Positions 27,214 to 44,495 of a DNA stretch of 64,000 nucleotides are shown piece after piece. Origin of the DNA: a virus; IMG/VR virus record IMGVR_UViG_3300021364_000018, positions 1 through 64,000 of that record; one strand, 5' to 3'. Both the position numbers and the translations under genes were made by a program. Under the pieces are notes generated by a model. The model did no database searches, was not told the origin of the DNA, and worked only from the letters and a program-made list of their open reading frames with translations. Within the stretch, counting starts at the first letter, position 1; each line of letters starts with the position of its first letter.

Positions 27214-27236
27214 GAAGTTAGTCGTTTGCTAACTTC
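27214..27236 (-). terminator. Hairpin at the gp32 stop codon
   Basis: Perfect 8-bp stem GAAGTTAG/CTAACTTC with a 7-nt loop that includes the last codons of gp32. Only a weak U-rich sequence follows (TATATT), so it may protect the 3' end or pause rather than terminate. Confidence 0.4.
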
Positions 27237-28117
27237 TTAAAGTAATCCATCGCTTCGTCTTCACTTGAATCACCTACTGATGAAGATTCTGCTGATGCGA
27301 TTACAGGTTCTTCTGCCACTGTTTCAGTGTTTACATTTGACCAAGGCACTTCTTCTAGGTCTTCTGCAACTGATTCAGCAGTAGAGTTTGATACACCTGT
27401 TGTCCCTAACACTCTATCGAGTTTCTCTTTCAGTTCGTCATAAGACTTGAACTGGTCTGGTGAGATGATAGAGGATAATGGACTCAGTGAAGTATATATA
27501 TCATTTAACTGATTTTCATCAGTAAATAATGGTGCTGGTGAATCAAATTCTGATTTATCGTAGTTCCAGTAACCATCGACTTTTCTGATTTTGATTTTAA
27601 AGTTAGCACCTTCTTCTCTGAGGTCAAAAGGGTTGATAGCACTCTCATCTTCAAATGCTGGTGAGATTGCCTCTTTCAACATTTCAAAGATTTTCTTACC
27701 ATAACGGTATTGAAATACTTTCCCTTCATTATCAGGATTTTTAGGGTCTGAAACAACATAGATGTTAGACACATAATGAAGTCTACGCTTCTGCTTACGA
27801 GCCTGTTCTCTGTTTGCTTCGATATTAGTGTTCCACAACTGAGTGTTGTATTCACTAACAGGGTCTTTTTTACCAATGGTAGTCAAAGACTTTTCGATAT
27901 ACCAACCACCTGGGCCTTGAAAGCCATGGTCGAAGTAAGATACCCATGGCATCTCTTCGTTCTCTGGTGTTGGGAGGAATCTGATAATTGCGTAACCGTT
28001 ACCTGATTTATCAAGTTCTGGTTTCCAGAAATTATCATCTGAGTAGGATTTTTTTGCACCTTGTTCAGGTGAAGCAGATTCCATAGCTGCTCTTAGTTTA
28101 TCTAATGATGTCGACAT
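27218..28117 (-). CDS. 32: Single-stranded DNA-binding protein gp32
   Basis: 299 aa (T4 301 aa). The N-terminal cooperativity region is followed by DDNFWKPELDKSGNGYAIIR and the OB-fold core (RRLHYVSNIYVVSDP, then NEGKVFQYRYGKKIF). The C-terminus is acidic (SSEDEAMDYFKK), the part that recruits replication partners. The T4 zinc ligands (three Cys and a His) between WYIE and the VSNIYVV strand are not present: the loop reads EKSLTTIGKKDPVSEYN. It is in a cluster with gp59 and gp33. Its leader has three ATACAAT copies. Confidence 0.95.
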   Translation of the reverse strand: MSTSLDKLRAAMESASPEQGAKKSYSDDNFWKPELDKSGNGYAIIRFLPTPENEEMPWVSYFDHGFQGPGGWYIEKSLTTIGKKDPVSEYNTQLWNTNIEANREQARKQKRRLHYVSNIYVVSDPKNPDNEGKVFQYRYGKKIFEMLKEAISPAFEDESAINPFDLREEGANFKIKIRKVDGYWNYDKSEFDSPAPLFTDENQLNDIYTSLSPLSSIISPDQFKSYDELKEKLDRVLGTTGVSNSTAESVAEDLEEVPWSNVNTETVAEEPVIASAESSSVGDSSEDEAMDYFKKLAND

Positions 28118-40727: not shown

Positions 40728-40735
40728 TATTTATG
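40728..40735 (-). promoter_or_regulatory. Late-promoter-like CATAAATA
   Basis: CATAAATA on the minus strand, 4 nt before the ATG at 40723; it overlaps the stop of the carbamoyltransferase C-terminal gene. Confidence 0.35.
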
Positions 40736-41384
40736 AAGGTGGTAAAGGTTTATCGTCTCCATCTGTTGAAGTTGCAGGTTTAAATCCTGGAATATATTTT
40801 GTTTTATCTCGTATACAATCGTAAGGGACATGAATCTCTTGGTCTTCTGGAATATATAAATGATTAATCATAGAACGATTACAGGTGTCAATGGCATCAT
40901 AGACTGTTTCACATATTGCTTCGCCACCTAGATTAAATGATGTATTAAATAATATTGGTACACCTGTTCTCTCATAAAAACCTTTAATGAGATTATAATA
41001 ATTTTTATTCTGTTCTTCGGTCACTGTTTGAATTCGACAAGTGTTGTCGGCATGAACAAGTGTAGGAATATCTTTGAGTGCCTTAGGTTTACACTGAATG
41101 GCAAACGACATCCAAGGCGATTCAGGTAATTGCAACATGTCAAAGTATTCTTCTGCATGTTCTAACATAACAGTGCAAGCAAATGGTCGATAGGACTCTC
41201 TCTTCTTTACATCATTGACAATTGCTTTGGCATTGTGATGTCTAGGGTCAAATAATATAGAACGATTACCTAGAGCACGAGGACCCCATTCAGAATGATT
41301 CTGAAAGATTGCGACAATCTGTTCGTTGTCAATAATTTCATCAAGAATTGAATCTTGGTCTCTATGAATATTAGTTGTTAGCAT
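40731..41384 (-). CDS. Carbamoyltransferase, C-terminal domain as a separate gene
   Basis: 217 aa. AIFQNHSEWGPRALGNRSIL followed by FDPRHHNAKAIVNDVKKRES and RPFACTVM matches the C-terminal domain of NodU/CmcH carbamoyltransferases, and PILFNTSFNLGGEAICETVY completes it. The ATG at 41384 has GGAG eight bases upstream, within the end of the N-terminal domain gene (14-nt overlap), so it is made as its own polypeptide. The pair would O-carbamoylate a sugar using carbamoyl phosphate and ATP. Confidence 0.85.
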   Translation of the reverse strand: MLTTNIHRDQDSILDEIIDNEQIVAIFQNHSEWGPRALGNRSILFDPRHHNAKAIVNDVKKRESYRPFACTVMLEHAEEYFDMLQLPESPWMSFAIQCKPKALKDIPTLVHADNTCRIQTVTEEQNKNYYNLIKGFYERTGVPILFNTSFNLGGEAICETVYDAIDTCNRSMINHLYIPEDQEIHVPYDCIRDKTKYIPGFKPATSTDGDDKPLPPS

Positions 41385-42546
41385 GATTTCTCCAATAATC
41401 TAAAGCGACACCAACCGCAGTGCCACCGTCATGTGGGATAGGGTCAACAAAAAATTGCACATCAGGAAATGCCTGTAGATACTTATAGTTGTTGGTGCAG
41501 TTCAATGAATACCCACCTGAGAGAACTACATTCTTACAATCAGGTACCATATCAAGTGCCTTCTGTATGATTTCTTTACTATGTTCAAGAGCAGCAAGTT
41601 CAAGTCTTTGTGCTTCTGTATGTTTAGTAAAGACTTTCGGATGGGCGCCACCATATGATGCCATACCCATAACTTTACCTGACGCTCTTCCCATTTTATC
41701 ACACCCTAATGCATAAGACATTTGTGAGAAGTTCATACCCATTGAAGGCATTGATGTCAGGACGACTGGCACACCATCTCTCTCATAGACTTCATCTGTA
41801 TAACACATAAAGGCATCTTCACCAAATGCATCTAAATCAAAATGCATTGAGTGAGAGAATCTCTGATTTGATAATCTTTTCCAAATAGGTGTGACTTGTT
41901 TGTCTTTGTAATGCCAAATGGTTTCAATTTCTTGATACATAGGGAACTCATCAAAGTAAGTTTGTGCTCCCCCACCGTCCCAGGCGATAACAATTGCCTC
42001 ATCGTAAGGTGATAAATGCGACCCACAGACAGCATGATAATAATGATGGTGACGAATATCAAAATGATAATTCTCAACTTCTACTTGTCTTGCAATTGCC
42101 TGATTAATGTGGTCGTCTTCGTCAACAAAGGTATGATTATCATCAAACACACTATCACCAAAGGCCTTTCTTATCTCTTCGATTCGTTTAAGAGTAAGTT
42201 GTGCTGATGAAAACTCCTGAGTTAATTCTTTTTGTAAGAGTCTATCTTTGTAAACTCTATCTTTAAACTTGACTTGAAAATCTCTACGGTCAAACGAGGC
42301 TAACGCCAGAGCGCTAGGTTTGTGTAACTGTTTGTGGTCTATTGCCAGTAAGGCAAAATTTTGATAGGAGTCAAGACCTTCGTTCTCATGGGTATCAAAC
42401 CCAGCATCGTCAATCGGTGAGAAATGTTTTTGTCTACGGCATCGTTCTTCTTCGTAAACATTTAAAACTTCACCTGATTTCCTATCAATACATGCGACTG
42501 ATGTATCGTGTGATTGGTTCACGCCCAATATAATATTGTCATTCAT
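41371..42546 (-). CDS. Carbamoyltransferase, N-terminal (Kae1-like) domain as a separate gene
   Basis: 391 aa. IILGVNQSHDTSVACIDRKS at the start, YEEERCRRQKHFSP, then FDIRHHHYYHAVCGSHLSPY with metal-binding His, and VVLSGGYSLNCTNNYK near 350 match the N-terminal domain of NodU-family carbamoyltransferases. Normally this is one protein of about 550-600 aa with the next gene's domain. The last residues HANN lie where the linker would be. There is an in-frame stop, not a frameshift, and the downstream start has its own Shine-Dalgarno. Confidence 0.85.
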   Translation of the reverse strand: MNDNIILGVNQSHDTSVACIDRKSGEVLNVYEEERCRRQKHFSPIDDAGFDTHENEGLDSYQNFALLAIDHKQLHKPSALALASFDRRDFQVKFKDRVYKDRLLQKELTQEFSSAQLTLKRIEEIRKAFGDSVFDDNHTFVDEDDHINQAIARQVEVENYHFDIRHHHYYHAVCGSHLSPYDEAIVIAWDGGGAQTYFDEFPMYQEIETIWHYKDKQVTPIWKRLSNQRFSHSMHFDLDAFGEDAFMCYTDEVYERDGVPVVLTSMPSMGMNFSQMSYALGCDKMGRASGKVMGMASYGGAHPKVFTKHTEAQRLELAALEHSKEIIQKALDMVPDCKNVVLSGGYSLNCTNNYKYLQAFPDVQFFVDPIPHDGGTAVGVALDYWRNHANN

Positions 42547-43680: not shown

Positions 43681-43735
43681 TTTTGGTTTCCTTCTTCGTT
43701 TTTCCCAAAAAAAATTTTAATAAGGGTACCGGTCA

Positions 43736-43763
43736 GAAAAACAACCCGATGCCTTAACATCAG
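43736..43763 (-). terminator. Possible intrinsic terminator
   Basis: Stem CTGATG/CATCGG (one wobble) with a 6-nt loop at 43763-43746, followed by GTTGTTTTTCT on the minus strand. It lies downstream of the 59-aa gene and upstream of the 89-aa gene. Confidence 0.45.
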
Positions 43764-43780
43764 TGGACCAAGGGCAACAC

Positions 43781-43807
43781 AATCGCTGGGACTGTTCCTA
43801 AGCGATT
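43781..43807 (-). other. Long hairpin directly after the 59-aa gene
   Basis: Perfect 7-bp stem AATCGCT/AGCGATT with a 13-nt loop that itself contains GGAACAGTCC. It begins at the base after the stop codon of the 59-aa gene. No U tract directly follows; it may protect the mRNA 3' end together with the terminator-like hairpin downstream. Confidence 0.5.
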
Positions 43808-43987
43808 CTACTGCACCCGAGTGACTTCGACTACACACTCCTTCGATTCTAACTCTGAGGCGACTTCCATCGCTTCTCTCATAGGTATCGGAGTCGTATT
43901 ATAGACCTGCCATACTCTGTCACCACTAATGTGTTTGATATTCTTATGGAAGTACCTCACAGTGGCATTCATGTTGTCTACTGTCAT
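43808..43987 (-). CDS. Small protein behind a structured leader RNA
   Basis: 59 aa (MTVDNMNATVRYFHKNIKHI, then DRVWQVYNTTPIPMREAMEV, then ASELESKECVVEVTRVQ). Looks like a compact alpha/beta domain; no family recognised. AAGGA lies 8 nt before the ATG. It is preceded by the four-helix leader RNA at 44006-44119 and followed by a strong hairpin, so it forms its own short transcription unit. Confidence 0.72.
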   Translation of the reverse strand: MTVDNMNATVRYFHKNIKHISGDRVWQVYNTTPIPMREAMEVASELESKECVVEVTRVQ

Positions 43988-44005: not shown

Positions 44006-44119
44006 TGCTGTAGTGGGCGGGGCAACCTCCTCCCCGCCATGGATGTTCGGACATCAACCTCTGGGACTTTCACATATGCATGATATATTACAGGTAACTC
44101 CCAGATGAACCCTACAACA
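44006..44119 (-). ncRNA. Four-way-junction leader RNA (candidate regulatory RNA)
   Basis: On the minus strand four nested-compatible helices form a closed junction. P1 TGTTGTAG/CTACAGCA pairs 44119-44112 with 44013-44006 (8 bp, one G-U). P2 TCTGGGA/TCCCAGA pairs 44105-44099 with 44066-44060. P3 GATGT/ACATC is at 44055-44042 with a 4-nt loop. P4 GGCGGGG/CCCCGCC is at 44038-44016 with loop AGGAGGTTG. A TATAAT promoter places +1 at about 44120, exactly the 5' edge of P1. The 59-aa gene starts 18 nt after P1, with AAGGA between. The geometry is that of a riboswitch or other cis-regulatory RNA; I do not recognise the class. Confidence 0.68.
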
Positions 44120-44126
44120 TATAACC

Positions 44127-44156
44127 ATTATACTATGGTAATGCAGTCTATGTCTA
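44127..44156 (-). promoter_or_regulatory. sigma70-like promoter for the structured RNA
   Basis: TAGACA at 44156-44151, 18-bp spacer, perfect TATAAT at 44132-44127. Predicted start near 44120. Overlaps the stop of the upstream 72-aa gene. Confidence 0.7.
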
Positions 44157-44373: not shown

Positions 44374-44457
44374 TTATTTCCTTTTCTCATCATGGTAATG
44401 GTAACAAAAAATGGAGGTCACTGTCAACCCCTCTATGGCGCTACGAATCACCTGCAT
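44374..44457 (-). CDS. Possible 27-aa leader peptide
   Basis: An ATG at 44457 opens 27 codons (MQVIRSAIEGLTVTS, then IFCYHYHDEKRK) ending one base before the ATG of the 72-aa gene. Its ATG follows GGAGGGTT and lies just after the predicted start of the distal promoter. The frame also spans the proximal promoter, so coding may be incidental. Confidence 0.35.
   Translation of the reverse strand: MQVIRSAIEGLTVTSIFCYHYHDEKRK
44398..44427 (-). promoter_or_regulatory. Proximal promoter of the 72-aa gene
   Basis: TTGACA at 44427-44422, 18-bp spacer with a T6 run, TACCAT at 44403-44398. Predicted start near 44391, leader with AAAGGAA. Confidence 0.65.
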
Positions 44458-44465
44458 AACCCTCC

Positions 44466-44495
44466 ATGGTATCATATATGGGGGTCATATGTCAA
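44466..44495 (-). promoter_or_regulatory. Distal promoter of the 72-aa gene
   Basis: TTGACA at 44495-44490, 18-bp spacer containing TGACCCCC, TACCAT at 44471-44466. Same architecture as the proximal promoter 68 bp downstream. Confidence 0.62.

Follow-up and report, generated by a model that had tools for sequence, protein, structure and literature searches.

A structured RNA family backed by covariation in T4-like marine phages: a predicted pseudoknot and stand-alone, operon-embedded and gene-enclosing forms

Elaborate non-coding RNAs such as GOLLD, ROOL and HEARO were found largely by comparative genomics; GOLLD is also present in phages, and ORFs may be contained in HEARO elements. Among T4-like phages, an H-type pseudoknot is known from the gene 32 mRNA of T4, T2 and RB69, and the tRNA region of T4 also encodes RNAC and RNAD, two small stable RNAs of unknown role (PMC3014915). 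A glnA riboswitch and a two-piece tmRNA have been described in the marine phages Melnitz and Mosig (PMC9004378). According to a review from 2010 on how T4 regulates gene expression post-transcriptionally, no riboswitch or trans-acting small RNA of this phage had been functionally characterised, and its relatives were hoped to yield candidates (PMC3014915). A survey of pelagimyophages with Riboswitch Scanner found no riboswitches (PMC7029224).

The window analysed here, a stretch of 64,000 nt from an IMG/VR virus record of 65,259 nt, encodes a T4-type single-strand DNA-binding protein (gene 32, 27218-28117), a ribonucleotide reductase that shares 73% identity with those of cyanophages and, close to the RNA considered below, a DUF6552 protein with a homologue in Pelagibacter phage HTVC008M. 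This RNA resembles the gene 32 element in being a predicted H-type pseudoknot of a T4-like phage, but it does not lie upstream of gene 32, it carries two conserved hairpins after the pseudoknot, and it belongs to a family with a putative promoter and a 3' module of its own that exists without a downstream gene. Like the RNAs of Melnitz and Mosig it is a structured RNA of a T4-like marine phage, and its position near a DUF6552 gene recalls the two-piece tmRNA of pelagiphage Mosig (L110, 717-1055), which lies about 2 kb from a DUF6552 homologue; nevertheless, no Rfam match to the glnA riboswitch or to tmRNA and no ARAGORN tmRNA call was obtained for it. The comparison with RNAC and RNAD is by description only, and the window, unlike T4, has no tRNA genes. 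GOLLD, ROOL and HEARO, none of which gave an Rfam match, are much larger than the phage RNA.

An earlier, sequence-only reading had proposed four helices (P1 to P4) at 44119-44006 on the minus strand, closing a four-way junction, as the leader of a 59-aa gene, a riboswitch or protein-sensing element of no recognised class transcribed from a TAGACA-N18-TATAAT promoter. The helices are indeed present there, and folding of the 114 nt returned all four, with the four-way junction, as the minimum free energy structure (-40.3 kcal/mol, z -2.18, with 4 of 200 shuffles equally good). Taken by itself, the window sequence has a fold that stands out only mildly, and proof of structure comes from the relatives rather than from the single-sequence fold. 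No better promoter match lies nearby, and the ORF begins 18 nt past P1 with AAGGA in between, as had been proposed. The features of the locus are as follows.

44127-44156, minus strand: sigma70-like promoter TAGACA-N18-TATAAT, with 11 of 12 consensus bases and a predicted +1 at about 44121-44120
44016-44121, minus strand: 5' module
44111-44121, minus strand: 5' strand of S1, UAUGUUGUAGG, the first strand of the predicted pseudoknot, overlapping the 5' strand of P1 and forming an 11-bp helix with 44094-44084
44099-44105, minus strand: 5' strand of P2, UCUGGGA, forming 7 bp with 44060-44066
44084-44094, minus strand: 3' strand of S1, CCUGUAAUAUA, located in the P2 loop and closing the predicted H-type pseudoknot
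44060-44066, minus strand: 3' strand of P2, UCCCAGA, pairing with 44099-44105
44042-44055, minus strand: P3 hairpin GAUG-UCCGAA-CAUC, with a nearly invariant CCGAA loop
44016-44038, minus strand: P4 hairpin GGCGGGG-AGGAGGUUG-CCCCGCC, the loop of relatives being AAU-GNRA-ACG-like
44006-44013, minus strand: 3' strand of P1, CUACAGCA, a lineage-specific helix competing with S1
43808-43987, minus strand: 59-aa ORF, between the 5' and 3' modules
43707-43807, minus strand: 3' module, AACAGUCC ... UUGGUCCACUGAUGUUAAGGCAUCGGG ... U8, identified by alignment; the same sequence directly follows the 5' module in gene-free relatives

The 59-aa protein has a single relative, encoded in record L001 (92% amino acid identity). 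Between L001 and the window the leader is 91.5% identical and the promoter 97%, compared to 75-77% for the flanking genes, and both stem changes in L001 are compensatory (G-C to A-U in P2, C-G to A-U in P4). Further relatives came from three routes, namely the neighbouring DUF6552 gene, blastn against the retrieved loci and two DNA patterns, and fall into two groups in IMG/VR. Group 1, all related marine phages, comprises the window, L001, L088, L089, L092, L103, L104 (same RNA in L107 and L108), L105 and L106 (complete in L115). Group 2 comprises L009-L012, L086 (same module in L096), L090, L091/L095/L097 and the more divergent G003 (= L116). Scores with a covariance model (R1) were 55-127 bits in group 1 and 37-40 bits in group 2; a rebuilt model including L116 (R2) gave L116 a score of 52 bits, and found it in its own record with E = 8e-12, a value obtained with that sequence in the model. 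With one covariance model the module was found in 17 of the 23 records searched, once in each (ignoring sub-threshold extras), and no record in which it was found with confidence has more than one copy. Several candidates were set aside: G028/L123, in which the two conserved loops are both missing, the relaxed-pattern matches L098-L102, where the rest of the module is absent, matches in L034 and L068, which look like chance, and a weak R2 match in HTVC008M inside a dehydrogenase gene.

No match to a known family was found for these sequences. Rfam 15, whose scope includes riboswitches, tmRNA, RNase P, group I introns, GOLLD, HEARO and glnA, gave no match in the window at gathering cutoffs, and permissive scans of the window, L086, L092, L089, L104 and L105 gave nothing near a cutoff, the best weak match being to the Moco riboswitch in L089 (20.4 bits against a cutoff of 36). 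ARAGORN called no tRNA or tmRNA in the window or at the RNA loci. Distant blastn against 50,697 phage records and tblastn found no match in named phages, model R1 found none in the cultured pelagimyophages HTVC008M and Mosig, and exact and relaxed patterns gave 0 matches in 84,980 prokaryote genomes of GTDB. The RNA family is thus previously uncatalogued and so far known from uncultured phages only.

The stems P2, P3 and P4 have been kept through many compensatory changes. In a structure-blind MAFFT alignment, both bases have changed with pairing preserved at 11 of their 22 pairs, a count reached by none of 500 shuffles, and sliding the partner strand by 1-3 columns reduced the proportion of paired cells from 92% to 33-65%. 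A model-fitted alignment including group 2, which leans towards the structure, raises the number of covarying pairs to 17 of 22. P2 was also aligned by hand: each of the nine members for which both strands are available forms the full set of seven pairs, with both-side changes at six positions (one of which takes C-G, A-U, U-A and G-C) and G-U variation at the seventh; on the MAFFT alignment, five of the seven pairs show both-side changes. The P3 stem GAUG/CAUC becomes AAUG/CAUU in L103 and L104 and UAUG/UAUA in L116. P4 consists of seven G-C pairs in the window, as had been remarked, but has A-U or C-G at the same places in other members (GGAGGGG/CCCCUCC, GCGCCGG/CCGGCGC, GCGUGG/CCACGC). Covariation in related phages, the check suggested by the sequence-only reading, bears out P2, P3 and P4 but not P1, and together with the conserved promoter and the negative Rfam searches it supports the proposal of a structured RNA of no recognised class beginning at the predicted start site. 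The 5' module at 44121-44016 is thus that of an uncatalogued family of phage structured RNAs, as judged from comparative alignment.

The two hairpin loops are conserved as well. The P3 loop reads (C/U)GAA in all members, mostly CCGAA, and the P4 loop is, in every member except the window, a GNRA tetraloop closed by U-A (or U-G). The AGGAGG in the window's P4 loop, previously taken for a Shine-Dalgarno mimic, is unique to it, being replaced by AATGAAAACG in L001 and by similar sequences in other relatives, and this idea was dropped. Since both loops are kept in group 2, they probably form the functional surface of the RNA. Two contacts between the modules may be envisaged, of the P3 loop UCCGA with an invariant UCGGG of the 3' module and of GUCUUA with UAAGGC; these sequences are nearly invariant, so that covariation is uninformative on both, and CCGAA persists in group 2, where there is no 3' module.

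The promoter pattern CACTAGACA..TATAAT/TATACT is retained in L089, L092, L103-L105 and L108, and L115 has CACTAGACA followed by a TACCAT-like second box. Two more promoter-like sites of the form TTGACA-N18-TACCAT, with a TG extension, are found at 44398-44495 on the minus strand, within a non-coding stretch conserved in L001. The TACCAT box of these sites is the one that also precedes the RNA in L115, and may be a -10 variant peculiar to phage, with early promoters in tandem.

P1, described as the helix closing the four-way junction, is confined to the window and L001, where it measures 8-12 bp. The best helix at the equivalent place after P4 in L089, L092, L103, L104 and L105 has 4-5 bp and is no better than in shuffled sequences, and L106 has an unrelated 8-bp match there. 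Scanning of the 5' end against the whole RNA identified instead a partner, CCUGUAAUAUA, within the P2 loop, giving the strand order S1a, L1, P2a, L2, S1b, L3, P2b of a pseudoknot that had gone unnoticed in the sequence-only reading. Every member examined has the S1 helix in the same register, with 11 bp in the window, 10 bp and one A.A mismatch in L089/L104, CAUAUA..GAGG paired with CCUC..UAUAUG in L115, and AGGUC/GACCU (L086), AGGCG/UGCCU (L009) and CGUC/GACG (L116) in group 2. In group 2, L1 (about 1 nt), S1 (4-5 bp), P2 (6-7 bp) and an A-rich L3 are spaced as in a classical H-type pseudoknot. Single-sequence tests of S1 gave p values of 0.0006-0.11, each only around 0.05, which combine to 1e-5 over sequences that are related to each other. 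In the MAFFT register, S1 shows one-sided pairing-preserving changes only, partly of the G-U-preserving kind, and no both-sided change. As the tested sequences are related, the 5'-terminal H-type pseudoknot predicted from this pairing is best regarded as well supported, short of proof. P1 and S1 share one 5' strand in the window and L001 and are mutually exclusive there; the duplex energies calculated from +1 are -10.1 kcal/mol for P1 and -6.6 kcal/mol for S1.

The most marked difference within group 1 concerns the 59-aa ORF, whose absence from most relatives, like the 3' module beyond it, had also escaped notice. In the window and L001 the ORF lies between the two modules, with the 3' module retained behind it (43807-43707 in the window). 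Nine other group-1 records (L088, L089, L092, L103, L104, L105, L107, L108 and L106/L115) have no gene between P4 and the 3' module, which here reads CGUCUUAG..AACAGUCC..GUUGGUCCACU..UGUUAAGGCAUCGGGAU and ends near AAAUUUUUUU. Its invariant elements UUGGUCCACU and UUAAGGCAUCGGG are kept beyond the ORF in the window. The predicted complete gene-free RNAs measure 248-309 nt with a T7-T8 tract at the end, and the longest sense ORFs within five of them are unrelated and of 12-34 codons only. Applied to the full alignment, RNAalifold returned an overall model that was poor and had a positive covariation term, and no fold is therefore given for the middle and 3' modules. Of the traits that a putative stand-alone RNA would have, group 1 conserves a promoter sequence and a T tract, and most members have no long ORF; the window has an ORF inside. 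Records L103, L104 and L105 share the flanking genes of the window and do not have the ORF, so that insertion of the ORF in the window's lineage appears the simplest reading; loss elsewhere is possible.

The ORF itself looks translated, as 9 synonymous and 5 non-synonymous codon changes separate the window from L001 and 10 of the 16 base changes fall at third positions. The protein has no significant match in Pfam or PHROGs. Codons 47-59 (43847-43808) are identical in DNA sequence in the window and L001, and this 3' end of the ORF might double as part of the RNA.

Group-2 phages carry the 5' module only, inside operons. It begins within about 5-10 nt after a stop codon and lies 26-45 nt upstream of the next start codon, and the genes downstream differ among members. 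A T7 tract comes after P4 in L086 and L009, and an automatic terminator scan did not call P4 in group 2. Read-through of the stop codon at the group-2 pseudoknots was considered and rejected, the next in-frame stop being located within a few codons. The gene directly after the group-2 RNA of L009 (5463-5735) has a weak match to phrog_527, of unknown function (E 0.004).

On balance we lean towards a stand-alone phage RNA, probably acting in trans, into which a gene was inserted in the window's lineage. Host-type RNA polymerase would start at the conserved promoter, and the first bases of the transcript would pair with the P2 loop to form the H-type pseudoknot, followed by the P3 hairpin exposing its CCGAA loop and the P4 hairpin with, in most members, its GNRA loop. 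Transcription would continue straight into the 3' module in most group-1 phages and end near the T7-T8 tract, yielding a non-coding RNA of the length given above, whereas in the window's lineage a single transcript would comprise both RNA domains and a small mRNA, and in group-2 phages the 5' module would stand alone between operon genes. The invariant loops would be presented in trans to a protein or another RNA, and the 5'-terminal pseudoknot may shield the RNA from decay. It is tempting to speculate further, although this fuller scenario is rather unlikely as a whole, that the family consists of early phage RNAs of a new class, whose trans action targets a host factor while the phage takes over marine bacteria, and that insertion of the 59-aa gene produced a dual non-coding RNA and mRNA in which the new P1 and the ancestral S1 compete for the first bases as a two-state switch.

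The proposal of a cis-acting leader, riboswitch or protein-sensing, applies best to the window and L001, where the module directly precedes the 59-aa gene and a ligand or protein could switch between the competing P1 and S1 ahead of the ribosome site; the location of group-2 copies upstream of start codons is also in its favour. As a general account it is undermined by the gene-free records (L088, L089, L092, L103-L108 and L115), by the restriction of P1 to two sequences and the lack of conservation of the Shine-Dalgarno mimic, and by the variety of genes after group-2 copies, with no conserved position before one gene or pathway. Moreover, the Shine-Dalgarno sequence AAGGA lies outside P1 and would be sequestered in neither state, and even the best riboswitch match in Rfam (Moco, L089) falls well short of its cutoff. 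Regulation in cis is live but unlikely, weaker than the trans-acting RNA and of interest mainly for the window's lineage; a secondary leader role in the window's genome and L001 is conceivable. A comparable degree of doubt attaches to a transcript-end or stability element that would block exonucleases or mark operon processing sites, with P4 and its T tract terminating transcription in some phages. Such a role may apply to group 2, given the start of the module just past a stop codon, and group-1 RNAs end in T7-T8; the T7 after P4 in L086 and L009 would also fit a plain terminator; yet the terminator scan did not call P4, and a simple terminator has no need of invariant CCGAA and GNRA loops, a promoter of its own or a 3' module.

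Very improbable is an operator for the phage single-strand DNA-binding protein, comparable to the T4 gene 32 pseudoknot and possibly displaced from its gene. The T2 gene 32 pseudoknot, with its short L1 and A-rich L3, is similar in H-type geometry to the group-2 modules, i.e. a short L1, stems of 5 bp and 7 bp and an A-rich L3 in a T4-like phage; however, gene 32 of the window is 16 kb away and is preceded by no copy of the module, the only match being at 44 kb. A chance structure, or a by-product of an opposite-strand coding region, would agree with the modest single-sequence z-score and with the antisense ORFs that overlap the element, but is already refuted for P2-P4 by compensatory changes at most stem pairs and by the far lower pairing of the slid controls, and the antisense reading frame differs between the window/L089 and L092; the chance that it holds is negligible. 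The stand-alone RNA, if confirmed, would provide a concrete candidate RNA for phage takeover of abundant ocean bacteria, and the window's locus a natural case of a gene located within a structured RNA.

Elsewhere in the window, the sequence of a Nol/NodU-like carbamoyltransferase is divided between two overlapping ORFs (40731-42546, minus strand), which match different halves of phrog_1601; the same split is evident in L092.
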